NCBI RefSeq assembly: GCF_018398335.1
Contig: NZ_JAHBRX010000001.1
Span: forward strand, 868,001 to 932,000
Direction of reading: 5' to 3'
Length of the DNA stretch: 64,000 bases
Origin: Chelatococcus sp. HY11
GTDB lineage: Bacteria > Pseudomonadota > Alphaproteobacteria > Rhizobiales > Beijerinckiaceae
The position numbers and the translations under genes are program-made. The notes under the pieces are model-generated. The model was not told the origin of the DNA and made no database searches. It saw only the letters and a program-made list of their open reading frames with translations. Shown here one piece after another: positions 10,767-58,523 of this stretch (position 1 is its first letter; every line of letters starts with the position of its first letter).

Positions 10767-11114
10767 GCCGAAGTTGACTAATTAGAAAGCATCGAAGGCA
10801 GGGATACCAGTCCCGCGGTACGGAATCGTAAATTCTGCGGCCGGCCGTGCTGAATGAGTGACCTCGCGACCGGGAGGGCGAGGAGCGCTCGGCGGTGTGG
10901 CGGCGAAAAGCCGGGCCTGGTATCTGTTATGGACCGCTTGCGCCGCGGTTGTTTGTTCGCTACCTGTTCTCTCTTGCGGGAGCCTGTTGTCGCGCAACGC
11001 GTGTCGGGGCTTGGGATACACGTTATGGACCGACAATGCCTGGCGGTGGATAGCGTGTCGTGAGGGCAGAAAGTCGCCTTTCGCTTTCACGGTCCATGCT
11101 CTAAGGAGCGAACT
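10767..11114. other. Intergenic region, divergent MFS exporter / parC
   Basis: 348 bases between divergent genes. It must contain both promoters. I see no further gene, repeat or clear operator. AAGGAG at 11102-11107 is the parC ribosome site. Confidence 0.6.
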
Positions 11115-24619: not shown

Positions 24620-25870
24620 TCAATGACCCTGTTCGGCCCGACTTCTGGCATCGACCCGGGTCGGGGCGAGGCCATCCTCGGCGAGCGCGCTGAGAATGCG
24701 CCGCGAGTGCTCGGCATCCCGGGTCTCGATGGTGAGGTCGATCGACACGCCCTTGGCCGGCACGTCAAGGAAAAGGCGCCCGTGCGAGACCTCGAGAATG
24801 TTGGCGCCGAGTTCGCCGAGCCGGCTCGCGATGCGGCCGAGCAGCCCCGGGCCGTCGTTGGTGATGACCCGGAAGGAGACAATGCGGTCGGCGCGCTCCA
24901 GCGCCCGCACCATCACTGAAGCCAGGAGCCGGGCATCGATATTGCCGCCACTCAGGACCAGCCCGACCTTGCGGCCCTTGAAACGCTCGGGATAGGCAAG
25001 GAGGGCGGCCAGCGCCGCCGCGCCCGCGCCCTCGGCCATGCTGCGCTGAAGCGTGGCATAGGCGTTCACGGCGCCTTCCAGCACCTCCTCATCGACCACG
25101 AGCACGTCGCTGGCGAGCTGGCGCACCACCGGCAGGGTCAGCTTGCCGACGTTCTTCACGGCGATGCCCTCGGCGATGGTCGGGCCGCCGATCGGCGTGT
25201 CTCTGCCTGAAAGCGCGTTGGAGAAGGACGGATAGAGCGCCGCCTCGACACCGATGAGCTCGATCCCGGGCTTCAGCGCCTTGGCTGCCGTGGCAATGCC
25301 GGCGAACAGGCCGCCACCGCCGATGGGAATAACCAGCACATCGAGATCGGGATTGTCGGTCAGGATTTCGAGTCCGACCGTTCCCTGGCCGGCCATGATG
25401 GCCTTGTCGTCGTAGGGGTGGATGAACACCAGGTTCTCAGCGGCGGCGATGGCCTCCGCCCGGACGGCGGATTCGGACAGGGTCTCGCCATCCAGCACGA
25501 CATGCGCCCCATGGGCGCGCGTATTCTCGACCTTCACCAGCGGCGTGGCCTGCGGCATGACGATTGTCGCGGGGATACCAAGGCGCTTGGCGTGGTAAGC
25601 GACAGCCTGCGCGTGGTTGCCGGCGGACATCGCTATGACGCCGCGCAGGCGTTCCTCCGGTGTGAGGCTTGAGAGTTTCACGAGCGCGCCGCGCTCCTTG
25701 AACGAGCCGGTCGGCTGCATGTTCTCGTATTTGACGTACACATCCGCACCGGTCAGCGCGCTCAGGGACGGCGAGGCGAGGAGTGGCGACCGGACAACGG
25801 CGTCGCCGAGGATGCCGGCGGCCCTTTCGATATCCGTAAGGTTCAGGATTGCATCGGTCGTTGTCGGCAC
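24620..25870 (-). CDS. Threonine ammonia-lyase with ACT domain
   Basis: PLP enzyme that deaminates threonine (and serine) to 2-oxobutyrate. The 416-residue product has the PLP-lysine motif PTGSFKERGA (Lys58), the glycine loop PIGGGGL and a C-terminal ACT-like domain from about residue 340 (VITNDGPGLLGRIASRLGEL). One short ACT domain suggests the catabolic/short form rather than long IlvA. GTG at 25870 with GGAGAT about 8 bases upstream is preferred. The ATG at 25939 lacks a ribosome site and adds residues unlike the family. Confidence 0.88.
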   Translation of the reverse strand: MPTTTDAILNLTDIERAAGILGDAVVRSPLLASPSLSALTGADVYVKYENMQPTGSFKERGALVKLSSLTPEERLRGVIAMSAGNHAQAVAYHAKRLGIPATIVMPQATPLVKVENTRAHGAHVVLDGETLSESAVRAEAIAAAENLVFIHPYDDKAIMAGQGTVGLEILTDNPDLDVLVIPIGGGGLFAGIATAAKALKPGIELIGVEAALYPSFSNALSGRDTPIGGPTIAEGIAVKNVGKLTLPVVRQLASDVLVVDEEVLEGAVNAYATLQRSMAEGAGAAALAALLAYPERFKGRKVGLVLSGGNIDARLLASVMVRALERADRIVSFRVITNDGPGLLGRIASRLGELGANILEVSHGRLFLDVPAKGVSIDLTIETRDAEHSRRILSALAEDGLAPTRVDARSRAEQGH

Positions 25871-26011
25871 GGCGGAATCTCCACTGGTGACATTGTCTTG
25901 CTTCGTTCCGTCACCGCTTAGCACAGATTTTTCGTGCATCTGTGATTGCGGCTCAAATCACGATTTGAATCTATTATTTTATAATGATATCAATAAATTA
26001 AAGAATATTTC

Positions 26012-27364
26012 TCATGTTTTTGACGAATTGTGGCTTATCGTGTGATCCGGGTCTGCTCCGAACAGACCCTGCGGACGCAGGACGAGAATGACCGCAAGCA
26101 GCGCATAGATCGCGATGTCGCGGCTCTCGATGGGCAGGGTGGCCGACCACAGCGCCTCGGCCGCGCCCACAATAAGCCCGCCGAGAAAGGCTCCCCCCAC
26201 GGATCCGACGCCGCCGAGGACGGCAGCGATAAGGGCCTTGAGGCCCAGGGACATGCCCGAGGTATAGCCGACATTGCCGTAGTAGATCGCCATGATGAAG
26301 CCGCCAAAGCCGGCCAGCATGCACGCCAGCAGGAACGTCTGGTCGAACAGTCGGCCGCCGTTGATGCCGCACAGCGCCGCGGCGCCCGGATCATCGGCAT
26401 AGGCACGCCATGCCCTGCCAAAGCCGGTCAGGCGCATGACGGCGATGAGAGCGATCGCGACGACGAAACCGGCCATGCTGATCGCGAGATTCATGGGTGT
26501 CGTCGTCACGGCGAAGCCTTCTGCTTCGGCCAGCGGCAGGGGATTGTTCCAGAGCGGTGGCAGCCACTGGGCATAACTACCCTGCGCCAGGCGTAGATAC
26601 TCCGCCATGGCAATGGACAGGCCGAGGCTCGCTATGAGAACGCGCTGGCCGCTGGCGTCACGCAGGGGGGCGATCGCAACGCGGCCAAGCACCACCCCAT
26701 GCAAGCCGGATGCGAAGAGCGCGAAAACAAGTCCCAGGCCGATGCCGACGAAGGGGGTGGAGATGCCCCCAGCGAGCGCGATGGCGACGCCAAGAGTGGC
26801 GGCGGTTCCGCCAAGAACAGCGAACTGGCCGAAGGCGAGGTTGATGCGGCCGATCAACCCGAAGATCAGGGCATACGTGCTCGCGATGAGGCCGTAGATG
26901 GCCAGCAAAGGCAGCGCGGAGACGGTCTGCTGGAGGCCGAGGCCGACGCTGCGCGATACCTGTGGTACGGGCCTTGCCGTCGCAATGTCGGCTTTCTCCT
27001 CCTCGGGAGCGTCCAGGTAAAAGCGCTTCAGGAAGTAGAAATTGGCATCGGAAACCGGCCCCCGTTCCGTGGCGATGCCGATCAGAAGCGACTTGTCGGC
27101 CGCGAGGCCCGTGCCCGCGAATCGGCAAAGCAGGACGCGCCCGCGCAATCGTCCGGCCGGGTCCTTCGCGGTGTAGTCGATGCGCAGGCTGTTGGGCAGG
27201 GGCCCCGATAAAGGGGCCGCGACGTCGACGATCTCACTTTCCAGATTGATCGCCGGCAGCACGGCGCGGCAGACCCTCTCCTGGTCGGCGTCCACCAACC
27301 TGGAACAGGCGGCCACCGTCATGACGCCGAGACCGATCAGGAGCAGGACGACAAGGCGGCGCAT
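26012..27364 (-). CDS. LivH-like ABC permease with lipoprotein-like N-terminal region
   Basis: The C-terminal two-thirds is a branched-chain amino-acid permease (PF02653 type). Its helices include YGLIASTYALIFGLIGRINL, and the ATPase-contact helix region holds GRAWRAYADDP. The first ~130 residues are not LivH-like. They begin with a signal and lipobox-like MTVAACS, then a predicted soluble part ending before the first permease helix near SVGLGLQQTVSALPLL. No livM, ATPase or binding protein is adjacent. Start placed at ATG 27364; the upstream extension has no signal. The 450-residue length is well above the ~300 of LivH. Confidence 0.75.
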   Translation of the reverse strand: MRRLVVLLLIGLGVMTVAACSRLVDADQERVCRAVLPAINLESEIVDVAAPLSGPLPNSLRIDYTAKDPAGRLRGRVLLCRFAGTGLAADKSLLIGIATERGPVSDANFYFLKRFYLDAPEEEKADIATARPVPQVSRSVGLGLQQTVSALPLLAIYGLIASTYALIFGLIGRINLAFGQFAVLGGTAATLGVAIALAGGISTPFVGIGLGLVFALFASGLHGVVLGRVAIAPLRDASGQRVLIASLGLSIAMAEYLRLAQGSYAQWLPPLWNNPLPLAEAEGFAVTTTPMNLAISMAGFVVAIALIAVMRLTGFGRAWRAYADDPGAAALCGINGGRLFDQTFLLACMLAGFGGFIMAIYYGNVGYTSGMSLGLKALIAAVLGGVGSVGGAFLGGLIVGAAEALWSATLPIESRDIAIYALLAVILVLRPQGLFGADPDHTISHNSSKT

Positions 27365-27493
27365 GGACAGGCCAACGGTGTGAGTGGGTGCCTTGCACAG
27401 GCTGGTCCGGCCTTTGAGCGGCCGGCCGATATTTCCGGATTGCGCGGGGCCGCCCGCCACCGCGGCCGACCGTTCCTGTATCAGCGGCGCCGC

Positions 27494-28950
<1,457 letters not shown>

Positions 28951-44436: not shown

Positions 44437-45054
44437 TCAATATTGAGGTTTCGGGACAGAGAGTCCCGAAAAAGTCCCGAAATCTGTTCCCTTCTTGTTC
44501 TTGTCTTCAAGTGCTCGGACTTTGCCAGCCAAGTTAGCCGCCCTAAGGCGAAGTTCGTTGAGGGTCCCATCATTCTGAAAAACCAGATCGGGCTCTCCCG
44601 GTAACACCTCTGAGGGGTGGTCGGACAACGGCCCGACACCCGGGCGTTGCACCTCGACGAGAAACGCACCACGTTGACGAAGCGCCGCGACCTCGTTCGC
44701 AAAGCGTACGCTCTCCTGCACCACATGGCCGCCGGCGCGGATGACGCGATCGACCTTCGCGAGCCAGAGCGACAACCAGAAATCGTCCGCCACACACTGG
44801 CGACCCCATTCGGTGCCGAGCGTCTGCTGCGCCTCTGTCGAGGTGATCCCCAATTCCGGAATGAGGTCGCGCTTCAGGTCGCCGTCGACGAACCGCACGA
44901 TGGTCGCCTCGTCATAGCCTATTTCCCGTAGTAGTGCGGCGAGCATTTGCTTGAGTGGCCGGCCGATGTGCGGCGCCACGAATCCATGGCGCCGGCATAG
45001 ATGGCGAGCGACCTCGCTCTTGCCGGCGCCGGCATAGCCCATCAGACCAATGAT
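44437..45054 (-). CDS. Phage-type deoxynucleoside monophosphate kinase
   Basis: The 205-residue product starts MIIGLMGYAGAGKSEVAR, a P-loop (GYAGAGKS). The middle contains GTEWGRQCVADDFW, typical of phage dNMP kinases. It is the last gene of the prophage-like patch on the minus strand. Its first 143 bases overlap the 3' end of the phosphoesterase reading frame, far more than phage genes usually overlap. The P-loop and catalytic blocks look intact. Confidence 0.75.
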   Translation of the reverse strand: MIGLMGYAGAGKSEVARHLCRRHGFVAPHIGRPLKQMLAALLREIGYDEATIVRFVDGDLKRDLIPELGITSTEAQQTLGTEWGRQCVADDFWLSLWLAKVDRVIRAGGHVVQESVRFANEVAALRQRGAFLVEVQRPGVGPLSDHPSEVLPGEPDLVFQNDGTLNELRLRAANLAGKVRALEDKNKKGTDFGTFSGLSVPKPQY

Positions 45055-46303
45055 CATGCCGCCGCCCTCGCCATGGTGGCGGTATCCGCAGGCGCGGCAG
45101 GGGAGGAACAGCCGGATCTTCAAGCTGGATCTCGACACGCTCGCGCAGCTTCCAGCGCTCATGCAGCAGGAACAGCCATTGCATCGGCGGCTCGAGGCTA
45201 GCGCGCAGACCGTTGCCGTATTCGGTATAGCCGGGCACCGAGCCGTTGCTGAGTACAGTCCCTGGATTGGCCGAGGTGTGGTAGTGCCCGTGCAGGATGA
45301 GATCGGGCCGCCGCCCGGCGCGAGCCTGTTGCGCCTCCACCTTCTTCGTGCCGCGAACAATCGGCGCCAGCGGCCCGATGAACCCTTGGCCGCCGCCCGT
45401 GCCCATGCCGTCGCCGTGGTTGACGAAGACCGTGTGGCCGAGGACGGGCACGACGGCGTCCCTTGAGGCGCCGATCTGGAACGTCACCCGTTTATCGCCC
45501 GCATACCGATCGGCAATCATCGAGGCGGCGAGGGTGTCATAGGACGTGCGCGCATAGAGTTTGGCTGTCGGCTTCACCGTGACGCGGCCGTGGTTACCCG
45601 GCACCGACACCACATGGACGCGGCCGAAGGTGTCGCGCAGATGCCGGATGCCGGCCGCGATCTCCTCGACGACGAAGCGCACCTGATCGTGAGCGGTGAG
45701 GGCATTCGTGATGCGCAGTTCCTCGTGAATGTCGCCAGAGATGAGATCACCACCCAGGACGAGGAGGACGCCTTCGTTCTGGCAATCGACCGTCCAGCGC
45801 GGGCCGATCTCGCAGGAGGCCGCGAAATACCGGCGCAGGCGGCGGCGGCAAATCTCGACATCGAAGGCATTGAGGCCGAGGATTTCATCGGGATCCACCC
45901 GCTCACCCGCATGCACATCGCTGAGCAGAAGGCCGATGACCGATCGGCTTCGTTTCGGTGACGCGGCGGCGAGCAGCCTTTCGGGCGGCTGCACCGGCTG
46001 GTTGCGAATGCCGGCCAGCTGCTCGGCCATCAACTCGACCTTGGCGAGATCCTTCTCGGCCGTCTTCAATCGCTTGCGCCAGAACGCGGCATCATGCAGC
46101 TCGCGGCGGGCTGCCTGGGGCGATGTTTCTGGCGTCTGCGCCAGTCCAGCCAGCATCGTGGACAACGTCCGGCTTGCCGTCTTCCGGCCTATACCGAGTT
46201 CGCGCGCGGCAACCGCTGGTTTGACGCCAGCGGCCAAGCGTTGGCGCAAGGCGGCTTTCTGCTCGGCCGAAAGGTGGGCGACCACCGCTGCTGCATTGAT
46301 CAT
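44912..46303 (-). CDS. Phage-associated metallophosphoesterase with HTH region
   Basis: An N-terminal Hin-like helix-turn-helix (RLAAGVKPAVAARELGIGRK) is followed by a calcineurin-type phosphoesterase with all motifs: LLSDVHAG, VLGGDLISGD, VPGNHGR, FVNHGDGMG and LHGHYHT. The catalytic domain looks intact. The last ~50 residues are Arg/Pro-rich and are an out-of-frame reading of the kinase gene, so the 3' end has probably shifted frame. ATG 46303 is chosen; the frame stays open upstream into the remains of another gene. Mobile-element protein of unknown role. Confidence 0.65.
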   Translation of the reverse strand: MINAAAVVAHLSAEQKAALRQRLAAGVKPAVAARELGIGRKTASRTLSTMLAGLAQTPETSPQAARRELHDAAFWRKRLKTAEKDLAKVELMAEQLAGIRNQPVQPPERLLAAASPKRSRSVIGLLLSDVHAGERVDPDEILGLNAFDVEICRRRLRRYFAASCEIGPRWTVDCQNEGVLLVLGGDLISGDIHEELRITNALTAHDQVRFVVEEIAAGIRHLRDTFGRVHVVSVPGNHGRVTVKPTAKLYARTSYDTLAASMIADRYAGDKRVTFQIGASRDAVVPVLGHTVFVNHGDGMGTGGGQGFIGPLAPIVRGTKKVEAQQARAGRRPDLILHGHYHTSANPGTVLSNGSVPGYTEYGNGLRASLEPPMQWLFLLHERWKLRERVEIQLEDPAVPPLPRLRIPPPWRGRRHDHWSDGLCRRRQERGRSPSMPAPWIRGAAHRPATQANARRTTTGNRL

Positions 46304-46508
46304 ATAGGCCGGATCGTCGATGATGCGCTTCGGCGCCACGAACTTGCCGACGAGCTCGAAGACGGCGCCGGCCTCGAATTCGATCGCATCCGGGTTGAGG
46401 TTGATCTCGACGCCCGGCGATGCCGTGTCGATGGCACGCGGGGTTGCTCAGCGCTTCGAGGGCGAACTTCTGCGCGGCGGTGATGATGAACTTGTTCTCG
46501 ACGCTCAT
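46304..46508 (-). pseudogene. Frameshifted phage structural-gene remnant
   Basis: Starts MSVENKFIITAAQKFALEAL with ATG 46508 overlapping the stop codon of the upstream remnant (ATGA). After about 23 residues the frame must shift for the text to stay coherent (then VEINLNPDAIEFEAGAVFEL and VGKFVAPKRIIDD), and it runs without a stop into the phosphoesterase. A frameshift plus loss of its stop is the simplest explanation. It resembles small genes downstream of Mu-like protease genes. Confidence 0.55.
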
Positions 46509-48356: not shown

Positions 48357-48968
48357 ATGCCATTTTCGCCGCCCTTCAAGAACTTCCAGGCAGGAGATAT
48401 GCTCTTTGGCTTGGGCTCGATCCTCGGGGCTGGATTGGGTAGATATACGAAGTATCTTGCCCCTGGTGTTTGTCGACAGTTATTGATTGTAAATTGTTAT
48501 CTTATAAGGGATGAAACATCGTTCCTTGGGCCTGCGAAGCATAATAAGGATTTTGTTTTGATGCTTTCTCAGCACCCGAAATATCGAGAGGCCTTGAACC
48601 CCGATCTCGATTACAATACTTGGAGTAGAAAAAAATCAAAATTTGGACTATTCTGGAACGCACACAATGGGCTCAATACAACCGCTCATTTCATTCTAGA
48701 TGATTTGGATTTACTTGATGTAATCAAAAAGAATAATGAAGGCGATTCGTGTCCGGAAATGGGTATAAAAGGAAGATCAATAACTGGCGCTGAGTTGCGA
48801 TGGATATACCGGAATAGGTACGATCCAAAAGTGCAGAGATCTGTTCAATTCTGGCTCAATGGAGAGCCATCTTACCCTCCCTGGGAGGCGGGCTTTGATG
48901 AAGGCCGCGTGTTCGCGAGGAGTGAATACTGGACATTGTACCGTCCGCGATCACAACAGCGTAGCTAG
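48357..48968 (+). CDS. Low-GC hypothetical protein, 203 residues
   Basis: Not recognised. Base composition is clearly AT-richer than the window, with AT-rich codons such as AAT, AAA, TTA and ATA. It is preceded by a very AT-rich stretch at 48230-48350, so it was probably acquired. The N-terminal part has a Gly-rich hydrophobic segment (MLFGLGSILGAGLG). The C-terminal half contains ITGAELRWIYRNRYDPKVQR and ends in a Pro/Trp-rich stretch. No signal peptide or known motif seen. A toxin or effector role is possible from context but unsupported. Confidence 0.6.
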   Translation: MPFSPPFKNFQAGDMLFGLGSILGAGLGRYTKYLAPGVCRQLLIVNCYLIRDETSFLGPAKHNKDFVLMLSQHPKYREALNPDLDYNTWSRKKSKFGLFWNAHNGLNTTAHFILDDLDLLDVIKKNNEGDSCPEMGIKGRSITGAELRWIYRNRYDPKVQRSVQFWLNGEPSYPPWEAGFDEGRVFARSEYWTLYRPRSQQRS

Positions 48969-49232: not shown

Positions 49233-49982
49233 CTAGGGAGCTCCGGGCGACATCGGCGGTTTGAAGCGCACGACGAACCGGTGGCGATCGCCAGGATAGA
49301 TCAGCCGGACAAATGTGATGAGCTGGCCATCCAGCCATGTCCTGCGCGCGATGGAGATGCAGGCCGTGCGCTCGACCACCTGCAGTCTCCTGGCAAGGAT
49401 AGCGTCGGCGGACACCGCGCGTATCGAATGCTCCCCCTCAGTGAAAGGAACATTCTGGAGCAGCCAGCTGCCCGGTGGCTCGTCCTTGAACTGCAGCCGC
49501 TCCACTTGCGGGACCGCATCAAGATTGATCTGACGGGTCTCCATCGTAAATGGCAGATTGTCGGCATAGTGCATGACCTCGAGGGTCAGGAGACGGGTTC
49601 CCACGGGAACGCCGACGTGCCGTGCATCAAGAGCGTCGGTTGCTTTTCGTACGCTGCGATCCGTGATCTCGAACGAATAAGTCCGGTCAATCGCCAAGAC
49701 CTCCGCGCGAATATCCTGAATGTGCATCAGCGGTTCTTCGATGCGCGGGGGCGCCACGAAAGAACCCGACCGGCGCTTTCGAGAGATCATTCCCGCGGCG
49801 GCAAGACTTGATAAGGCCTTGTTCACCGTCATTCGCGAACAGTTATAGATGTCGACTAATTCACGCTCCGGAGGAATACGGGTACCCGGTCCCCATTCAC
49901 CGGTCGTAATCTTGCTCTCGATATCGCGCTGTATCTCCAAGTAACGAGACGAAGCTTGTTTTTCCGTCGAAAAATCATCCAT
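49233..49982 (-). CDS. hutC: HutC-type GntR/UTRA repressor
   Basis: Repressor of histidine-utilisation genes; family members are induced by urocanate. The 249-residue product has an N-terminal GntR winged helix (GPGTRIPPERELVDIYNCSR, then MTVNKALSSLAAAGMISRKR) and a UTRA ligand domain ending with ITFVRLIYPGDRHRFVVRF, typical of HutC. It follows hutH on the same strand. A HutC-like site lies 75 bases upstream of its start, so autoregulation is likely. Five such sites occur across 50-54.3 kb, which defines its probable regulon. Confidence 0.85.
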   Translation of the reverse strand: MDDFSTEKQASSRYLEIQRDIESKITTGEWGPGTRIPPERELVDIYNCSRMTVNKALSSLAAAGMISRKRRSGSFVAPPRIEEPLMHIQDIRAEVLAIDRTYSFEITDRSVRKATDALDARHVGVPVGTRLLTLEVMHYADNLPFTMETRQINLDAVPQVERLQFKDEPPGSWLLQNVPFTEGEHSIRAVSADAILARRLQVVERTACISIARRTWLDGQLITFVRLIYPGDRHRFVVRFKPPMSPGAP

Positions 49983-50195: not shown

Positions 50196-51725
50196 TCAGA
50201 GCGCGGGGAGGGGTTCATTGGCAACCGGCGCGATCAACCGGCCGCTTCCGACAAGTTCCGCCGCCAGCGTGAGGTCGCGAGCCATATAGCGGTCGTCATC
50301 GAGTTTCGGAATCTCAGCCCGGATGGCCTTGCGAACGGCATCAAGCGCCGGACTGGAGGTAAGCGGCGCGCGCAAGTCTATGCCCTGGGCGGCGCTGAGC
50401 GCTTCTATGCCCACGATGGAGAACAAGTTCTCCGTCATCGGGAGGAGGCGGCGGGCGCCGTGGCACGCCATGGAGACATGATCCTCCTGGTTTGCTGATG
50501 TGGGTGTTGAATCCACCGAAGCGGGATGGGACATCTGCTTGTTTTCTGACATCAGCGCGGCGGATGTGACCTCGGCGATCATGAAGCCGGAGTTCAATCC
50601 GGGCTTGGGTGTCAGAAAGGCCGGCAGGCCGTAGCTCAAGGCGGGATCGACGAGCAGGGCGATGCGCCTTTGGGCGATCGCGCCGATCTCGCAGACAGCA
50701 ATGGCGATCTGGTCCGCCGCAAGCGCCACGGGTTCCGCGTGGAAGTTGCCGCCTGAGACGATCGTGCCGTCGGAGAGCACAAGAGGGTTATCCGTCGCTG
50801 CGTTCGCCTCCACGATCAGTGTGCGGGCGGCCTGACGTAGGACATCGAGACAGGCGCCGACCACTTGGGGCTGGCAGCGAAGGCAGTAGGGATCCTGAAC
50901 GCGTTCGTCGCCCTGCTCGTGGCTCGCCCGAATCTCGGAACCGTCCATCAGCGCCCGCAGCGCGTCCGCGGCGTCGATCTGGCCCTGGTGACCGCGAAGA
51001 GCGTGGATCTCTGGATGAAAGGGGGATGTCGATCCCATCGCGGCGTCAGTGGACAGCGCCCCTGAGACAAGCGATGAGACCAGCGCGCGATGAGCACGGA
51101 AGAGCCCGGCGAGTGCCAGCGCCGTCGAGGTCTGCGTGCCGTTGATCATCGCCAGCCCTTCCTTGGCCTTCAGGATGATCGGGGCTATCCCCGCTTTCGC
51201 CAAGGCTTCGCTGGACGGCAAAACCTTTCCGTCGAGTTTCGCCTCGCCCTCGCCGATCAAGGTCGCGGTCATGTGGGCGAGCGGAGCGAGATCGCCAGAG
51301 GCGCCGACCGATCCCTTTTCCGGAATGACCGGAAGGACGTTCCTCTCAAGCATGGCAGCCAGACAATGGATAACCGCAGGTCTGACGCCTGAGGCTCCGC
51401 GCCCGAGAGAGATCAGCTTCAGCGTCATGATGAGCCGAACGATACCGTCATCCAGAGGAGCGCCGACGCCACAGCAGTGTGACAGGATGAGATTGCGCTG
51501 TAGCTTTTCGATGTCGTCTGCGGGAATCCGCACGCTGGCAAGTTTGCCAAATCCGGTGTTGATGCCGTAGTGCGCCTGCTCTCCGCCGGCGATCTCCGTG
51601 ACCTTGGCGGCTGACGCCCGAACCCTCTCCAGCGCAGCGTCATCCAATCGCGGGATGAGCGATCCCTCGTAGACGGCGGCCAAGGTTTCGAGGGGGACTT
51701 TTCCGGGAACAAGCGTATGGGCCAT
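50196..51725 (-). CDS. hutH: Histidine ammonia-lyase
   Basis: Deaminates L-histidine to urocanate, the first step of histidine catabolism. The 509-residue product contains the MIO-forming Ala142-Ser143-Gly144 in [14 protein letters not shown], the active-site tyrosine region [12 protein letters not shown] and the C-terminal [20 protein letters not shown] block. ATG 51725 has AGG about 8 bases upstream. A HutC-like site lies 55 bases upstream, and a strong hairpin at 51835-51867 separates it from the synthase-like gene before it. hutU, hutI and hutG are not in the window. Confidence 0.95.
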
Positions 51726-51779: not shown

Positions 51780-51794
51780 TTTGTATATACCATA
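51780..51794. promoter_or_regulatory. HutC-like operator upstream of hutH
   Basis: TTTGTATATACCATA, reverse complement TATGGTATATACAAA. It differs from the site at 53188-53202 by one base and contains the GTATATAC core that resembles known HutC sites (GTMTAKAC type). Confidence 0.75.
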
Positions 51795-51894: not shown

Positions 51895-52857
51895 TCAGGA
51901 TTGCTTAACTGGATTGAAACGGCCGGGGAATTCCTGACCGTTCACGGCGCGCCCGTAGAACATTCCCAGGTACCAGGGGAAGTAGTGATACGACCACGCG
52001 CACAGGCGGTTGCCATACATAATGAAAGTCCGCAGGATCGTGCGGAGTTCTTCCTTGTCATCCGTTTCGCGGATGGCGACCCGCAGCTTGTTCGAGAAAT
52101 CGAGAAGCGTGTTCAGGCCGGAGTAGCCAAGATACTCGGAATAGGCCGGGTCGAACGCTTCGACCGCCGCCACGAAGTCATCATGAGACAGCGTGTCGAT
52201 CAGTTTCAGGAGCGGATAGGCCGTGTACATGATGTAGTCACGGAGCATTCCGTTCGCGAAATCCCAGGCGGTGAAATACTGCCCGTATGTACCCGTGTCG
52301 CCGATCTCGCCGGTGCGTATACGTCGCAGGTCCTCGGGCTCAAGGGTCTGGATTCTTTTCGCCTCCGCGTAAAACTCCGCCGCGACGCCTTTGAGATTTG
52401 AGAACCGTCCTTCGCCTTTGTAGGCCTGCGCCGGATCGTGCGGCTTCACCTCAACGAAGATCTGCTCTTTCGCGAAGAAGAGATTGGTCCAGATTGCCTT
52501 TCCGACGCCTTGCAGCAGGTGGTGGTATTCCGGAAGGACTTTTCCAAGCACGGGCTGGGCGAGAGGCTCTAGCCCCTTGCCGTACTGGATCGAAAACTTG
52601 TTGCCGGTCGCTTGAGAATACCTCAGGTCCCCGACCGCGCAATCAATGATGCGGCGTCGCAAGCGGACTGGTGCGGTGCTGATGGTTGGCGTCCACGCGT
52701 AAAGCGACTCTCCCGACACCACGGGATGCGCCTGCATCACCTTGAACGGAAGATCTTGCCAGAATTCTTCACACAGTTCCGGATTGTCTTCGTCCGCGAG
52801 CTCCGCCACGACAACGATGCCCAGTTCCGGCCATGCGATATCAACCAACCTGCCCAT
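51895..52857 (-). CDS. Cucumopine synthase-like protein, normal domain order
   Basis: Resembles the cucumopine/mikimopine synthases of Agrobacterium, which condense L-histidine with 2-oxoglutarate to a cyclic opine. The 320-residue product has a cyclophilin-like (DUF3830-type) domain at residues 1-137 (ENPELCEEF... SGESLYAW, RYSQATGNK, QPVLGKVLPEY). A helical bundle at 155-303 has IRTGEIGDTGTYGQYFT, NGMLRDYIMYTAYPLL and AWSYHYFPW. ATG 52857 with GAGGA 6 bases upstream is chosen; longer readings would run through the operator at 52912. It pairs with the permuted paralog at 53272 in divergent orientation. Direction of the reaction (synthesis or breakdown) is unknown; hutH next door favours breakdown. 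Confidence 0.75.
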   Translation of the reverse strand: MGRLVDIAWPELGIVVVAELADEDNPELCEEFWQDLPFKVMQAHPVVSGESLYAWTPTISTAPVRLRRRIIDCAVGDLRYSQATGNKFSIQYGKGLEPLAQPVLGKVLPEYHHLLQGVGKAIWTNLFFAKEQIFVEVKPHDPAQAYKGEGRFSNLKGVAAEFYAEAKRIQTLEPEDLRRIRTGEIGDTGTYGQYFTAWDFANGMLRDYIMYTAYPLLKLIDTLSHDDFVAAVEAFDPAYSEYLGYSGLNTLLDFSNKLRVAIRETDDKEELRTILRTFIMYGNRLCAWSYHYFPWYLGMFYGRAVNGQEFPGRFNPVKQS

Positions 52858-52911
52858 TTCAGTCCTCATATTTCGGTAATGGCTCAGGCCAAATAAGATC
52901 ATTAGCCCGAT

Positions 52912-52926
52912 TAGGTATATACCATA
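52912..52926. promoter_or_regulatory. HutC-like operator upstream of the normal-order synthase-like gene
   Basis: TAGGTATATACCATA, reverse complement TATGGTATATACCTA. Contains the perfect palindrome GGTATATACC. 55 bases upstream of ATG 52857, almost the same distance as the site in front of hutH. Confidence 0.75.
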
Positions 52927-53187
52927 CGAGGTGTCTGGCTTTCCGCAAGGCCGTTTTCCGCGAAAGAGCCGGAGATTCAAAGTATTTCATCAGGCCAAAT
53001 GGCACATTTGTCTAATTTCTCGCGCGCATAGGGCTCTTGCCATGGGATTGCGCTCGGGGGGCAGGGCAGTTCCATTCGCGCGCAGCGACGTGAATTTCGC
53101 CCGTCTGAGGATCGTTTCCCGAGCGAGTTTCGCCTGATATCCGCACGAGCGAGGTCGTTCGGGTCATTTTTGTGAACAAAAGCGACA

Positions 53188-53202
53188 TATGGTCTATACA
53201 AA
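53188..53202. promoter_or_regulatory. HutC-like operator upstream of the permuted synthase-like gene
   Basis: TATGGTCTATACAAA, 70 bases upstream of ATG 53272. The core GTCTATAC is identical to classic HutC operators recalled from Klebsiella and Pseudomonas. Confidence 0.75.
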
Positions 53203-53271
53203 TATCGATCATTGCATATGCTTGTCCCAGGCGGCCGTGACCGCCTTCTGCTCAAGATGGGAAGTTGGCAA

Positions 53272-54219
53272 ATGACATATGAAAGCTTGGGTGATGTCAC
53301 CAGGGCGGTGAAGGAGAAGACGGCGGCTTATGAAAAAACTGAGCCGAAGGAACTTCAGGATATTCGCACCGGTGCATTTGCGGTTGGTACCAACAATCAG
53401 TATTTCACCAACCTCGATTTCGTGAACGGTATGCTTCGCGATCAGTCCATGTACACGTGGTATCCGCTTCTGCTGACATTCCAGGATGAGCGGTTCACGC
53501 TCGAGCAGGCCTGCGTGCTCGTGCATCGCTTCGACTATGCGTACAGCAATTATCTGCGCTACAGCGGCCTGCAGGAGATGGGCGCCTTTGCGGAGGCGAT
53601 CACAAAGCATCTTCCGACGGCTTCCAGCCGCGAAGAGGCCGTCGAGGCGGTGAAGGCGTTTCTCGGGTATCTCAACAGGCTGGCGGCATGGTCCTTCCAC
53701 TATTTTCCGTGGAGTATCGGCAAGCATCTCACTTACGAGACGCCCGAGGGCTCCATCGCGGCTCTGGCAGACCCCGCGCGTCGCGTGAAAATCGTGGGAG
53801 GCCAGAAGGTTCGCTTAACCTGGCAGCCGCTCGGCGTAAGCGTCATTGCCTATCTGGCCACCAGAGAAAACCCGGAACTCTGCAACGACATTATCGAGGC
53901 TCTGCCGTTCACCGTTGTCCAGGATCACGCCGTCGTCAGCGGTGAATCCATGTATGCCTGGGCGCCCGTCGTCAGTACTTCCCCGGTCAATGTGAAGGAG
54001 CGCCAGTGCGACGCTCCGGTGGGACGCATTCGTTACTCACAGGGTACAGGCAACAAGATCATCGTGCAGTATGGCGAGGTCACCGAGGATATCGCAACAC
54101 CGGTTCTTGGTGAAATACTGCCGGAGTACGCGGCGGACATCTACAAGGTCGGCCGAGCGGTTCTTGAAAGCAACTTCGGCGACAAAGCGCCCATCATGCT
54201 GACGGTTGAGCTCGCATAG
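53272..54219 (+). CDS. Cucumopine synthase-like protein with swapped domain order
   Basis: Homologue of the gene at 51895-52857 but with the domains reversed. The helical bundle is at residues 5-153 (DIRTGAFAVGT, NQYFTNLDFVNGMLRD, YSNYLRYSGL, NRLAAWSFHYFPW). The cyclophilin-like domain is at 172-315 (ENPELC, LPFTVVQDHAVVSGES, MYAWAP, GRIRYSQGTGNK, PVLGEILPEY). Shared blocks are nearly identical between the two proteins. The 315-residue length equals that of the paralog. ATG 53272 has GGGAAG about 8 bases upstream; ATG 53218 is a longer alternative. It may form a hetero-oligomer with the paralog or carry out a companion reaction on a histidine-derived compound. This is inference. Confidence 0.75.
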   Translation: MTYESLGDVTRAVKEKTAAYEKTEPKELQDIRTGAFAVGTNNQYFTNLDFVNGMLRDQSMYTWYPLLLTFQDERFTLEQACVLVHRFDYAYSNYLRYSGLQEMGAFAEAITKHLPTASSREEAVEAVKAFLGYLNRLAAWSFHYFPWSIGKHLTYETPEGSIAALADPARRVKIVGGQKVRLTWQPLGVSVIAYLATRENPELCNDIIEALPFTVVQDHAVVSGESMYAWAPVVSTSPVNVKERQCDAPVGRIRYSQGTGNKIIVQYGEVTEDIATPVLGEILPEYAADIYKVGRAVLESNFGDKAPIMLTVELA

Positions 54220-54304: not shown

Positions 54305-54319
54305 TATGTATAGACCAAA
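54305..54319. promoter_or_regulatory. HutC-like operator upstream of the ABC transporter operon
   Basis: TATGTATAGACCAAA, reverse complement TTTGGTCTATACATA. It lies in the 495-bp gap between the permuted synthase-like gene and the transporter binding protein, about 400 bases before the latter. The rest of the gap holds a 35-codon open frame, a small hairpin (GGCGCT/AGCGCC at 54385-54407), and no other gene. Confidence 0.7.
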
Positions 54320-54714: not shown

Positions 54715-55737
54715 ATGAAATGGAGCTTTGGAAAAACCGTCGTCAAAAGTGTGATGATGGTTGCCGCTTGCGCGCTGAGTACGGCCGCGATGGCACAACA
54801 AAAGGAGCTTATCCTTAGCGGCTTTGGCGGCGCCTATGACGAGGCGATGGCCGCAAGCGTCAAATCCTTCGAGCAGGAAAACGGAGTCAAGGTCACCATT
54901 GTTGCCGGCTCGGGCGCGAACAATATTGCGCGCGTCCGCAACAAGGAAGTCGACGTTATTGTTTCCGACCCGGTATTCGCCCTGCGTATGGAAGCGGAAA
55001 AGGCCTTCTCGCCGCTCGATCCCAATCTCGTTCCCAATCTGAAGACCCTTTATCCGAACGCCATCTACTCTGACGCAGTGGTCGCGGCGAACTTCGGCGC
55101 CTACGTGATTGCTTATAATCCCGCTGAAGTTAAGGCCCCGGAATCCTGGTACGATCTGGCAAAGCCCGAATACAAGGGCCGGGTTGCTCTCCGGGGGTTC
55201 CGCCCGGAAAACATCGACCTGATTACCCTCTTCGCGAAGCGCGCCGGCGGCAGCGAGCGCAATCCGGATGCCGGCTTCGCCGAACTGGCGAAGATCGCCA
55301 AGAACATCGACGTCTGGGTCGATGCCCATGCCAACCATCTTGAACTTTATCGCAATAACCAGATTTCGATGAGCGTGTGGACCGACGGTCGCATTGCCTG
55401 GGCGCGCAATACGGAAGGCCTCAAGATCGAAGGTGTCATTCCGAAGGAGGGCTTTTTCCCTCTGTCCTCGACGCTCAGCGTCGTCGCGGGACGGCCGAAT
55501 GGCGAACTGGCTCAGAAACTCGTGAACCACCTGCTCAGTCCGGCCTCTGGCCTCAACATGGCATCGCGCCTTGGATATTTCCCGACAAACCGCGAAGCCA
55601 AGCTGCCGCCTGAGATCCAGGCCAAGATCATGATCACGCCCGACAACGTGAAGGATCTTCAAAGCGCCGATTGGAAGTATATCGTCTCGGTCTATGATAA
55701 GTGGCAGCAGCGCTGGGAACGGGAAGTTCAACGCTGA
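54715..55737 (+). CDS. ABC transporter substrate-binding protein (PotD/opine type)
   Basis: Periplasmic receptor of the 340-residue PotD-like group that binds polyamines, opines and similar small charged ligands. Signal peptide with core MVAACALSTAAMA, cleaved before QQKEL. Then LILSGFGGAYDEAMAASV, VDVIVSDPVFALRMEAE, PESWYDLAKPEYKGRV and NQISMSVWTDGRIAW. The stop codon overlaps the ATPase ATG (TGATG). Its place beside the synthase-like genes and a HutC-like site suggests a histidine-derived ligand, which is inference. Confidence 0.88.
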   Translation: MKWSFGKTVVKSVMMVAACALSTAAMAQQKELILSGFGGAYDEAMAASVKSFEQENGVKVTIVAGSGANNIARVRNKEVDVIVSDPVFALRMEAEKAFSPLDPNLVPNLKTLYPNAIYSDAVVAANFGAYVIAYNPAEVKAPESWYDLAKPEYKGRVALRGFRPENIDLITLFAKRAGGSERNPDAGFAELAKIAKNIDVWVDAHANHLELYRNNQISMSVWTDGRIAWARNTEGLKIEGVIPKEGFFPLSSTLSVVAGRPNGELAQKLVNHLLSPASGLNMASRLGYFPTNREAKLPPEIQAKIMITPDNVKDLQSADWKYIVSVYDKWQQRWEREVQR

Positions 55738-56819
55738 TGGCCGAGCAATTTGATATTGAGCTGTCGCATTGCCGCAAGCGTTATGGCGCGTTCAGCGTCC
55801 TTGACGACGTCTCGCTCCAGGTCAAGAGGGGTGAGTTCATCACCGTTCTCGGCCCGAGCGGCTGTGGCAAGACAACGACGCTGCGTGCTATCGGGGGGTT
55901 CATGACCCCCGATAGCGGCCGCATCTCGATCCGGGGGAGGGAGGTGACCCATCTTCCTCCCTACAAGCGCAATATCGGCGTTGTTTTTCAGAACTACGCT
56001 CTCTGGCCGCACATGACTGTGGCGGAGATCCTCGGCTTCGGCCTGCGCATTCGCAAGCTGCCACGCGAGGAGATCGCCCGCCGTGTCGACCGCGCGTTAG
56101 GCATGGTGCAACTGACCGGCTTGAAGGATCGCTATCCACGGGAGCTCAGCGGTGGCCAGCAACAGCGTGTCGCCATGGCGCGCGCGCTGGCGATCGACCC
56201 CGAGGTGATCATTCTCGACGAGCCCCTCTCCAATCTCGATCGCCGGTTGCGGGAGGAATTGCGTATCGAGCTGAAGCGTCTCCAGCGTTCCCTCGGCGTG
56301 ACGATGCTGTTCGTCACGCACGACCAGGAAGAGGCGTTGTCGATGTCTGACCAGGTCGTCGTCATGCAGTCGGGACGGATTCAGCAGGTCGCCGATCCGC
56401 GAACGGTTTATGAGCGTCCCGCGAACCGTTTCGTCGCGGGCTTCCTCGGCAGCGCCAACTTCCTGACAGGCGAGTTGGTGAGCGACGCCCAGGAGGACAA
56501 GGCGCAGGTCAAGCTCGGCAATGGCGCAGTCGTCGGCGCATACACCCCTTCGGCGAAATTCGCGGGGGATAGGGTCACCGTCGTCGTTCGGCCGGAGTGG
56601 TTCGTGCTTGAAAGGCAAAGTGACCAACCGCGTGAAAATCAGCTCGAAGGCACGGTCGGAGACGTGATCTACGAGGGATCGGCGGTCCGTTATGGGATCT
56701 CCCTCGATCATGATCCCGCAGCGCCGGTCTTCCTGCAGGAGCGATCGAATGCTGACGTCCTGAAACCTGGAGACAAGGTGAGGCTCAATGTCACTAACGC
56801 TGTCATCGCCACAGACTGA
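55737..56819 (+). CDS. ABC transporter ATPase (PotA/opine type)
   Basis: The 360-residue ATPase has Walker A GPSGCGKTT, signature [16 protein letters not shown], Walker B VIILDEPLSNLD, switch VTHDQEEAL and a C-terminal TOBE domain (VTVVVRPEWFVLERQ). Its start overlaps the binding-protein stop, and its end overlaps the next permease gene by 32 bases. It energises uptake by the two permeases that follow. Confidence 0.92.
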   Translation: MAEQFDIELSHCRKRYGAFSVLDDVSLQVKRGEFITVLGPSGCGKTTTLRAIGGFMTPDSGRISIRGREVTHLPPYKRNIGVVFQNYALWPHMTVAEILGFGLRIRKLPREEIARRVDRALGMVQLTGLKDRYPRELSGGQQQRVAMARALAIDPEVIILDEPLSNLDRRLREELRIELKRLQRSLGVTMLFVTHDQEEALSMSDQVVVMQSGRIQQVADPRTVYERPANRFVAGFLGSANFLTGELVSDAQEDKAQVKLGNGAVVGAYTPSAKFAGDRVTVVVRPEWFVLERQSDQPRENQLEGTVGDVIYEGSAVRYGISLDHDPAAPVFLQERSNADVLKPGDKVRLNVTNAVIATD

Positions 56820-57699
56820 CGACCGTGGCGGGCTCCGGGAGCGGTGTGCAGCTTGGGCTACCCGCGCGCCGCTGTTTGTGCCGTTCCTCTTCGTCGTCCT
56901 TTTCTTTTTCGTGCCCATGGCGTGGCTCGTCGCGACGAGCATGTCCACACACGAGGTCGGCAGTCCGCCCGTGTTCACCGGCACGCTCGAGCACTACGCG
57001 CGTTTCTGGACAGATCCATTCTATCTGGAGACTGCGCTCTGGACGACCGTCAAGCTTTCGGTGGTTTCCACAGCGCTCGCCTTGATCATTGGCTATGTGC
57101 TCGCCTATTACATCGCTGAACTTCCACCTGATCGGCGCGGCTTTCTGACGAGCATGGTGGTCGTCTCGCTCTCCGTGAACATCGTCATCCGGATCTTTGG
57201 TCTGAATGTTCTCCTGATGAGCGGCGGCCTTGTCGATAGCGCGCTCACTTTTCTCGGCATGCCCAGAGTCCGCATCATGTACACCGAGCTCGGCGTCCTT
57301 ATCGGCCTGGTACAGATTGCCGTACCCTATGTCGTTCTGCCCCTCATCGGTGTCATCGCGGCCATCGATCCGGCTCTGAAGGAGGCGGCCGCGAGTGTCG
57401 GCGCCAACAAGTACAGGACGTTCTGGGCCGTGACATTTCCCCTGTCCTTGCCAGGAGTGGTCGCCGGCACGCTGATTGCCTTCACGCTGAATGCCGCGGC
57501 ATTCGCCATTCCGGCCCTGATGGGCGGCGGCCGGGTCAGGATGATGGGCATGATGGCCTATGAGCAGGCGACCGTGCAGGGCAACTTCCCGTTTGCCGCG
57601 GCCGTCGGGATAAGCCTGACTATCCTTAGTATCGTGATCACGGCCATCTATCTGTTCGCCATCAATAGAACCTTCCGGACGGCGAGGAAAGCAGCATGA
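56788..57699 (+). CDS. ABC transporter permease (PotB type)
   Basis: The 303-residue permease has six to seven membrane helices. The first is PFLFVVLFFFVPMAWLVATS, and the ATPase-docking loop is EAAASVGANKYRTFWAVTFP. Overlaps the ATPase gene by 32 bases and the next permease by four (ATGA), showing a tightly coupled operon. Confidence 0.9.
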   Translation: MSLTLSSPQTDDRGGLRERCAAWATRAPLFVPFLFVVLFFFVPMAWLVATSMSTHEVGSPPVFTGTLEHYARFWTDPFYLETALWTTVKLSVVSTALALIIGYVLAYYIAELPPDRRGFLTSMVVVSLSVNIVIRIFGLNVLLMSGGLVDSALTFLGMPRVRIMYTELGVLIGLVQIAVPYVVLPLIGVIAAIDPALKEAAASVGANKYRTFWAVTFPLSLPGVVAGTLIAFTLNAAAFAIPALMGGGRVRMMGMMAYEQATVQGNFPFAAAVGISLTILSIVITAIYLFAINRTFRTARKAA

Positions 57700-58523
57700 C
57701 CGCCACCACAACGATGTCGAGCGGGAAGGTGCGCTGGCCATTGCCCACGGGGTTGGGAATCGCCGCATCTTGCGCGTTCATTTTCGTGGTTGCCCCCCTC
57801 ATCGTGGTCGCCGGGGCCGCCTTGAACGCGGAGGCGATGTTCTTTCCGCCCCGGCAATTGACCCTTCACTGGATGATCGCGGCGCTGACGGAGGGCAGCT
57901 TTGTCAACGGCGCGCTGATCAGCTTCGTCGTCGCAGCCGTGGCGGCGACGGTTTCGACGCTTTTCGCGCTGCCGGTCGCACTCCAGTTGAGGAAAGCACC
58001 GCCCGCCGTCGCGCGGATACTGACCCTGTCATTCATGGGGCCGCTACTCGTCCCCTCGGTCATCTTCGCCTTGGCGCTCTATTCGGTAATGATGTACGCG
58101 TTCGGTGTAACCAACCTGTTCATCCTGATGATAGGCCACGTCATCATCACCATGCCCTATCCGGTGCGGACCATCACGGCGGTGACCGAGCATCTTGATC
58201 CCGCGCTGGAAGACGCGGCGAGCAGTGTCGGCGCGTCGCCCTGGCGCACCTTCGTCTCGGTTACACTGCCACTGATAAAGCCTGGTGTGATCGCCGGATT
58301 TCTCTTCGCCTTCATCACGTCGTGGAACGACTTCTCGATTTCTGTCTTTTTGACGCCACGCGAGCTGCAACCCCTGCCGATCAAGATCTACGAATATCTT
58401 CTATTCCAATACAGGCCTATCATCGCGGCGGTCTCCACCTGGTCGGTCATTGGCTCGGCCATCATCGTTCTGATCATCGATCGGCTTGTCGGTCTGAACG
58501 TCTTCACCGGCCGCCGCGCTTAG
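57696..58523 (+). CDS. ABC transporter permease (PotC type)
   Basis: The 275-residue second permease has six helices and the docking loop EDAASSVGASPWRTFVSVTL. Last gene of the SBP-ATPase-permease-permease operon. A weak hairpin (AGAGC/GCTCT) and a Rhizobiales-type palindromic repeat follow. The adjacent TRAP/CoA-transferase genes converge from the other strand. Confidence 0.9.
   Translation: MTATTTMSSGKVRWPLPTGLGIAASCAFIFVVAPLIVVAGAALNAEAMFFPPRQLTLHWMIAALTEGSFVNGALISFVVAAVAATVSTLFALPVALQLRKAPPAVARILTLSFMGPLLVPSVIFALALYSVMMYAFGVTNLFILMIGHVIITMPYPVRTITAVTEHLDPALEDAASSVGASPWRTFVSVTLPLIKPGVIAGFLFAFITSWNDFSISVFLTPRELQPLPIKIYEYLLFQYRPIIAAVSTWSVIGSAIIVLIIDRLVGLNVFTGRRA

Follow-up and report, generated by a model that had tools for sequence, protein, structure and literature searches.

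The window analysed here comprises 64,000 nucleotides of Chelatococcus sp. HY11 and covers positions 868001-932000 of a 4.6 Mb contig (NZ_JAHBRX010000001.1) in a genome of 6.9 Mb. Two neighbouring genes in this window are transcribed divergently and encode proteins composed of the same two domains in opposite order, a helical bundle known from cucumopine synthases and a cyclophilin-like domain. The protein in which the cyclophilin-like domain comes first is termed AB in the following and the protein that starts with the helical bundle BA:

51895..52857, minus strand: AB protein, 320 amino acids; likely start ATG 52857, with AGGA upstream
52438..52857, minus strand: AB cyclophilin-like (DUF3830-like) domain, approximately residues 1-140; invariant Glu97, codon 52567-52569
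51958..52395, minus strand: AB helical bundle (PF18631), approximately residues 155-300; Pfam match
53272..54219, plus strand: BA protein, 315 amino acids; likely start ATG 53272, with GGGAAG upstream
53272..53736, plus strand: BA helical bundle (PF18631), approximately residues 1-155; Pfam match and structure model
53800..54210, plus strand: BA cyclophilin-like domain, approximately residues 177-313; invariant Glu272, codon 54085-54087

The ATG at 53272 is also the annotated start of BA in plasmid homologues.

Two domains in exchanged order

Both open reading frames were found where the original prediction had placed them, and its claim that their halves align in swapped order was confirmed. 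A BLASTP comparison of the minus with the plus strand protein aligned the cyclophilin-like halves (residues 2-138 with 177-313, 48% identity, E 2e-43) and the bundles (residues 173-298 with 24-150, 45% identity, E 5e-31), and the two extra segments reported had E values of 0.67 and 1.2. The local alignment score of AB against BA rose from 343 for the native proteins to 588 after exchanging the halves of the plus strand protein, and did not exceed 60 in 200 shuffles of that protein. The bundle was recognised by the Pfam profile PF18631 (Cucumopine_C, cut-off 27 bits) in the minus strand frame at residues 160-293 of 322 (55.5 bits) and in the plus strand frame at residues 18-148 of 320 (56.9 bits). 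The match of the cyclophilin-like half to DUF3830 stays below the cut-off of 26 bits in both (20.7 bits for residues 15-99 of the minus and 14.3 bits for residues 192-240 of the plus strand frame). None of the 12 AB, BA or split proteins scanned was named by NCBIfam, the best chance matches having E values of 0.12 and 0.45; weak matches to ergothionase (E 0.7) and DUF4183 (E 0.021) were likewise judged to be due to chance.

Structure prediction of each monomer also supported the opposite orders. The BA model, built from 22 sequences (mean predicted local distance difference test score, pLDDT, 87.7; predicted template modelling score 0.87), shows a helical bundle (helices from 6-19 to 120-143) and after it a cyclophilin-like half rich in beta structure. 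The 32 best Foldseek matches of this model are chains of KslB, aligned over 303-318 columns with template modelling scores of 0.80-0.85 by query length and 43-46% identity, and the matched entries include by title complexes with the product formed from L-tryptophan (L-Trp) and 2-oxoglutarate and with that formed from L-Trp and succinic semialdehyde. McbB (3x27) covers just 141-143 columns of the same model. The AB model is weak (8 sequences, pLDDT 51.8) and served for the domain order alone; its two top matches are McbB chains over 321-324 columns, followed by KslB chains over 139-155. In sequence, AB and BA both align with the cyclophilin-like halves of KslB and McbB, and BA does so in fold as well.

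Both orders are thus already present among solved structures, AB in McbB and BA in KslB, and the permutation between the two window proteins is real but represents a known order in a known family. In the literature searched, which did not extend to the structure papers themselves, we found no statement that McbB and KslB are permuted relatives, and searches for Cucumopine_C and for DUF3830 returned no papers. KslB, the kitasetaline Pictet-Spenglerase (PDB 9ns6, 9nsc, 9nss, 9nst, 9nsu, 9k0a, 9k0b), resembles BA in domain order and full-length fold. It condenses L-Trp with 2-oxoglutarate, according to PMC12513458. While this oxo-acid is a point of likeness, KslB differs from the window pair in using L-Trp, in being biosynthetic and actinobacterial and in having no AB partner at the five related actinobacterial loci fetched. 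McbB of the marinacarboline pathway (PDB 3x27) has the AB order and aligns with residues 3-303 of the minus strand protein (E 1e-31), but the identity is just 27-34% per domain and McbB branches, with a long branch, outside the clade of AB and BA. A glutamate is invariant in all 67 rows of the family alignment, AB and BA included; it presumably corresponds to Glu97 of McbB, which we take to be the catalytic glutamate, an equation that depends on this numbering. Taken together, the evidence supports placing AB and BA in the Cucumopine_C/McbB-like Pictet-Spenglerase fold family, and Pictet-Spengler activity or its reversal is predicted for them.

A gene cluster shared with opine plasmids

The pair is flanked by two histidine utilisation genes on one side and by the four genes of an ATP-binding cassette (ABC) importer on the other:

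49233..49982, minus strand: hutC, GntR/UTRA histidine-utilisation repressor; TIGR02018 269.6 bits (cut-off 220); 91% identical to the pRi2659 homologue
50196..51725, minus strand: hutH, histidine ammonia-lyase; TIGR01225 697 bits (cut-off 539), Lyase_aromatic; 85-87% identical to pRi2659 and F2/5
51782..51792, no strand assigned: candidate HutC-like operator TGTATATACCA before hutH; motif match
52914..52924, no strand assigned: candidate HutC-like operator before AB; motif match with one mismatch
53190..53200, minus strand: candidate HutC-like operator before BA; exact match
54307..54317, no strand assigned: candidate HutC-like operator before the ABC importer genes; exact match
54715..55737, plus strand: ABC importer solute-binding protein; SBP_bac_8/SBP_bac_6; 87-88% identical to pRi2659 and F2/5
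55737..56819, plus strand: ABC importer ATPase; PotA/PhnT-like, below those equivalog cut-offs; 86% identical to pRi2659 and F2/5
56788..57699, plus strand: ABC importer permease 1; BPD_transp_1; 90-91% identical to pRi2659 and F2/5
57696..58523, plus strand: ABC importer permease 2; PotC-like, below cut-off; 88-90% identical to pRi2659 and F2/5

Since hutC and hutH equivalogs adjoin the pair, the connection to histidine made by the original prediction stands. The motif TRTATANACCA, allowing one mismatch, occurs at four sites in the window where 0.55 would be expected, and none of 100 shuffles reached four; it was picked after inspecting these promoters, so the count is descriptive. Better support comes from conservation of the motif in other records: operator-like sites are located at the same promoters in the root-inducing (Ri) plasmid pRi2659, the F2/5 plasmid and the loci L020, L098 and L099, with one mismatch before AB throughout these records and one in the importer site of L020. 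Loci L097, L100 and L024 contain fewer or weaker sites (mostly with one mismatch), and one match in L097 lies inside AB. The plasmids pRi2659 and F2/5 have two extra sites, one between the divergent genes for formimidoylglutamate deiminase and hutI and one approximately 130 bases into the annotated hutG. A HutC equivalog together with an operator-like site repeated at the promoters fits a HutC regulon, in which HutC would bind these sites. With hutC, hutH, the importer and four HutC-like operators, the context of the pair points to breakdown.

On the other side of hutC, the alignment with a genome of the same genus (G002) breaks off between 43900 and 49233, which looks like an insertion. Two open reading frames located there (44912-46339 and 48357-48968) are without Pfam match, though the second matches L098 weakly and in part.

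The survey for further occurrences proposed in the original prediction found the permuted order and the co-occurring pair elsewhere. In a tblastn search of the PLSDB plasmids each protein matched 16 records, and the same 13 Agrobacterium/Rhizobium records, which are Ti (tumour-inducing), Ri or opine-catabolic plasmids, carry the divergent pair with a spacing of about 360-385 bases. The other three matches, in Paraburkholderia, Rhodococcus and Nonomuraea, are below 60% identity. Four of the plasmids, pRi2659 (NC_010841), pAvF25c, pAvCG412 and pAtAg67, have the pair in the same orientation between hutC-hutH and the four-gene ABC importer as in the window, while nine other records share the two genes and their orientation. 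From hutC through permease 2, AB and BA included, the window genes are 85-93% identical to those of pRi2659 and F2/5 (AB: 91-93%). A similar cluster on pTiAg57 has gaps and broken genes, and several genes of pTiLBA1191 are in pieces.

Unlike the window copy, which is chromosomal and shorter, the plasmid clusters carry more hut as well as hydantoinase/oxoprolinase genes. On all four plasmids the importer is followed by the gene for formimidoylglutamate deiminase and hut genes, with hutU, hutI and hutG on pRi2659, pAvF25c and pAtAg67; the gene table of pAvCG412 lists hutI and hutG and not hutU. Before the hutC-pair cluster, the same plasmids have hydantoinase/oxoprolinase genes and a second, amino-acid-type importer, the ATPase gene of which is missing from the pRi2659 table; the PLSDB gene tables are incomplete by their own account. 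Hydantoinase/oxoprolinase genes would fit the opening of an opine lactam. One of the four plasmids, pAtAg67, is described in PMC10745273 (after Hooykaas et al. 2022) as an octopine/cucumopine-catabolic plasmid without vir and T-DNA (transferred DNA) regions, and a cucumopine-catabolic region is marked on it.

A third PF18631 copy is present in pTi CG412, pTiAg57 and pRi2659 of strain K599; a profile search did not find one in the F2/5 plasmid or in NC_010841, which we take to be the disarmed pRi2659. The third copy of K599 is a 963-base gene beside a row of rolB-family genes, has the BA order and shares 88% identity with the window BA (297 residues) and 92% with the catabolic BA of the same plasmid. 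The record labels it "hypothetical protein"; from its location and the opine type of the plasmid we infer that it is the cucumopine synthase gene cus. The T-DNA copy of CG412 is 85-91% identical to four catabolic BA proteins and keeps the invariant glutamate. In the T-DNA cus of pRi2659 and of A. vitis/A. fabrum Ti plasmids the bundle comes first, as in the plus strand protein, but cus lies in the T-DNA next to rolB-family genes, whereas the window BA stands behind a HutC-like operator on a bacterial chromosome. T-DNA cus is expressed in plant cells and works in the condensing direction. T-DNA synthases with catabolic homologues on the same plasmid have precedents in mannopine and agropine.

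These copies reverse the polarity suggested originally. The plus strand gene had been regarded as a circularly permuted paralog of a family with a C-terminal bundle. That the two genes are paralogues of opposite order holds, but the plus strand gene is not the deviant one: the T-DNA copies of pRi2659, pTi CG412 and pTiAg57, the three examined, all have the bundle first, so that the Pfam label "C-terminal" does not fit, and the allegedly permuted gene is the true sister of cucumopine synthase.

Mikimopine synthase (mis) of pRi1724 has the same two domains in the AB order. The copy taken as mis (25138-26064) lies between rolB-family genes and a gene pair (27055-28022) that encodes the A and B domains as split proteins. 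PMC4242671 describes riorf22 and riorf23 as mis homologues outside the T-DNA. The pair at 27055-28022 is probably riorf22/23. The mis region resembles the cucumopine clusters in having hydantoinase/oxoprolinase genes, importers and hutI, but mis and the split pair are only about 16-23% identical to the window pair per domain. Neither window protein gave a tblastn match on pRi1724 at 1e-5, and its two copies were found by profile only. Because the two T-DNA synthases have opposite orders, we considered domain order as the cause of the cucumopine/mikimopine stereochemistry; this idea was dropped, since mis groups with split genes and both order and stereochemistry are confounded with ancestry.

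Family tree and uneven evolution of the pair

A tree was calculated from the A and B domains placed side by side for 67 rows (65 different) that we selected from the fetched loci, with near-copies partly left out. It is midpoint-rooted without outgroup and therefore gives the permutation no polarity, and mis, McbB and one split row have long branches, the joins of which are flagged by the program. The 34 BA rows form one clade (support 98/95) that includes the window plus strand protein, which is placed inside the plasmid group. The ten pair-type AB rows (nine different sequences), among them the window minus strand protein, form their own clade (100/99), sister to BA. McbB lies outside both clades, and mis falls together with seven split rows (100/99). 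Since mis groups, on a long branch, with split genes, its AB fusion looks independent. The deeper branches of BA and AB are not agrobacterial, whereas T-DNA cus (the CG412 row) is nested within catabolic BA rows, and most likely it descends from a catabolic BA gene. Among the split genes both orders are represented, A-B in 13 rows and B-A in 8, so that the permutation could plausibly have come about by fission and re-fusion; tandem duplication with trimming may be an alternative.

The two proteins of the pair have not diverged evenly. Between the window and Chelatococcus asaccharovorans, hutC is 81% identical, the importer genes 76-82% and AB 89%, but BA only 55%. The comparison with G173 gave a similar picture (hutC 80%, hutH 81%, importer 76-80%, AB 78%, BA 59%). 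The AB and BA rows of one genome of the same genus are identical to those of C. asaccharovorans DSM 6462. Outside the cucumopine group, in the single comparison of C. asaccharovorans with Martelella (L026), AB and BA changed about alike (AB 69% over 236 residues, being cut at the locus end; BA 74%). On the stem of the cucumopine-type group the BA branch has a length of 0.47 versus about 0.05 for AB. On this stem BA lost residues that the other BA rows conserve (two W replaced by L, one Y by N and one Y by Q), and PT changed to EV two and three places before the invariant glutamate, which itself was kept. This suggests that BA changed its substrate on this stem while AB was left unchanged.

The difference between 89% for AB and 55% for BA had raised the suspicion of horizontal exchange of BA in C. 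asaccharovorans. Such an exchange is unneeded, because the AB and BA topologies agree and the long BA-only stem fits the difference. Grouping cucumopine-type BA with C. asaccharovorans BA to the exclusion of G173 was rejected in an approximately unbiased test (p-AU 0.0003; test chosen after viewing the tree), and the AB tree likewise leaves C. asaccharovorans outside (94/80, not starred).

Probable cucumopine breakdown and related loci

The explanation that we consider probable is a cluster, located on the chromosome, for the utilisation of cucumopine or an adduct much like it, comprising importer, BA cleavage, HutH, HutC and AB. Cucumopine is the Pictet-Spengler adduct of L-histidine and 2-oxoglutarate, the histidine counterpart of the KslB chemistry. 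The substrate, direction, regulation and division of labour proposed here would be as follows. The ABC importer would take up the adduct, and BA would run the reaction of its near-twin, the T-DNA cucumopine synthase, in reverse as a retro-Pictet-Spengler hydrolase. Through acid/base catalysis by the conserved glutamate, the bond between the carbon atoms at the imidazole ring would open to an imine, the hydrolysis of which would release histidine and 2-oxoglutarate. HutH would then deaminate histidine irreversibly and thereby pull the equilibrium. The genes for hutH, AB, BA and the importer would be de-repressed via HutC at the common operator. BA is most likely the cleaving enzyme, because of its 88% identity to the T-DNA enzyme, the invariant glutamate, the importer, the HutC-like sites and hutH. 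AB would act in the same route as a second enzyme of distinct specificity, perhaps for another stereoisomer or another form of the adduct; it may extend the range of BA, since BA occurs without a nearby AB in several genomes, whereas the loci fetched contained no pair-type AB lacking BA.

Several observations weigh against this explanation. The known members KslB and McbB, and by name also Cus and Mis, run in the condensing direction, and the two actinobacterial BA loci tested have an adjoining P450 gene and are probably biosynthetic like ksl. To our knowledge Chelatococcus is not known as a gall coloniser. Genes for hyuA/hyuB, hutU, hutI, hutG and formimidoylglutamate deiminase are absent among the annotated window genes next to the cluster (the rest of the window is unannotated); urocanase is located elsewhere in the genome. 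In addition, the G002 cluster lacks approximately 1 kb of hutH (L098 near 10207-11064), and the C. asaccharovorans cluster has no hutH match.

The substrates could instead be other Pictet-Spengler adducts, arising spontaneously from amino acids and oxo-acids in plant litter, with the Agrobacterium plasmids having borrowed the system for opines. Such an origin would agree with the deeper BA and AB branches outside Agrobacterium, in trees without an outgroup root, and with the abundance of the family in this genus. Among 149 genomes examined, all four of the genus have seven PF18631 domains each, and one of the other 145 has a match. In the order sample 13 of 397 genomes, the window's own included, have a match and in the phylum sample 1 of 398, again the window's own; in 14 named control genomes none was found at E 0.001 and four at E 1, none of these above the cut-off. 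The varied neighbours in the window genome (a UbiD decarboxylase, ergothioneine-utilisation enzymes, a pyruvate oxidase-like enzyme and hydantoinases) fit too. However, the window BA is so close to the pRi2659 T-DNA copy, and placed inside the plasmid group, that cucumopine or a close analogue is the simplest substrate, and we regard other adducts as unlikely.

A further possibility is a single hetero-oligomer of AB and BA, in which their orders would be complementary and neither protein active alone. Each of the ten pair-type AB rows, and one more in L026, has a BA gene at a distance of no more than about 5 kb, the divergent genes have matching operator-like sites in the window and on the plasmids, and the split two-gene members show that the fold can assemble from separate chains. 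On the other hand, the flanks of approximately 5 kb fetched around BA contain no AB in five actinobacteria, two Caballeronia, Sodalis and Acerihabitans, and in Neorhizobium L024 BA is accompanied by an AB remnant only. The solved relatives are deposited as single gene products, and 89% identity for AB next to 55% for BA is unexpected for a co-adapted interface. The occurrence of BA without nearby AB and the long stem in BA alone therefore lean against a strict mutual dependence, which appears quite improbable. It is very doubtful that the pair is biosynthetic and the bacterium makes a histidine adduct, for instance a metal ligand, and then re-imports it: KslB, McbB and the T-DNA synthases do condense, and 2-oxoglutarate and histidine are always present in the cell, but the cluster contains HutC-like operators and hutH, an importer with no exporter recognised among its genes, and is the same as that on a plasmid described as cucumopine-catabolic in PMC10745273.

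The family touches on the old puzzle of where T-DNA opine synthase genes come from, since cus nests within bacterial genes of histidine-catabolic clusters and mis groups with split genes like the pair adjoining its own T-DNA. This suggests that two opine synthases of the same fold were recruited separately, from relatives of different architecture. If BA does run in reverse, it would be an enzymatic retro-Pictet-Spengler reaction. The family is also a natural case of circular permutation: a single genome has both fused architectures, AB and BA, alongside split forms in either gene order. Tentatively, and with somewhat less than even confidence, we propose that BA proteins outside actinobacteria are dedicated cofactor-free retro-Pictet-Spenglerases that salvage amino acids by C-C cleavage and of which Chelatococcus keeps a set of relatives; that T-DNA cus is such an enzyme, captured after the BA-only burst and run forwards in the plant; and that AB and BA split the work by stereoisomer or adduct form. 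We believe that the chromosomal cluster outside Agrobacterium, the recognition of the cucumopine-plasmid pair as AB/BA and the position of cus inside the catabolic BA clade are new, although part of this may already be in print.

Beyond the pair, BA is encoded at two further places of the window genome, and split pairs at three. One split pair (C1:4012928-4013790) shares 85% identity with the pRi1724 pair in one domain and 87% in the other; thus, the chromosome carries relatives of both the cucumopine and the mikimopine type. The other four PF18631-bearing regions adjoin importers, and two of them also hydantoinase/oxoprolinase genes.

In the first of these (L016:9539-12051, approximately 2634.5-2637.1 kb of C1) a BA gene overlaps a UbiD-family decarboxylase gene (TIGR00148 above cut-off) by four bases, and the unit stands behind an amino-acid-type ABC importer. 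It perhaps serves to decarboxylate a Pictet-Spengler adduct or what is left after its breakdown. Next to it (L016:12239-19778) a split A and B pair is found with an importer and two enzymes with ergothioneine-utilisation names, ErtE (N-carbamyl-L-glutamate amidohydrolase, 592 bits, cut-off 520) and ErtD (hydantoin-5-propionate amidohydrolase, 638 bits, cut-off 600); these split proteins may have a role other than Pictet-Spengler chemistry. On the 94-kb contig C5 (L019:4102-18874) a split pair in the order bundle, cyclophilin-like domain is followed by hydantoinase B/A, an amino-acid importer and a GntR/UTRA regulator. This cluster lies between a Tn3 transposase and an IS110-type transposase and is possibly a mobile salvage cassette. 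At L018:5450-16921 a BA gene without AB has two importers around it, an NMT1-type ABC importer and one of oligopeptide type, as well as a DJ-1/PfpI protein, a TrmB-type regulator and a hydantoinase/oxoprolinase gene.

In other genomes, BA relatives of Sodalis, P. xenovorans and Caballeronia have an aromatic ammonia-lyase nearby (all three neighbours of 510-529 residues tested), which favours the breakdown reading; the fourth such neighbour, in L016, is the UbiD decarboxylase and not an ammonia-lyase. The AB remnant of Neorhizobium L024 is short (near 4195-4700), and BA and the importer are kept at this locus.

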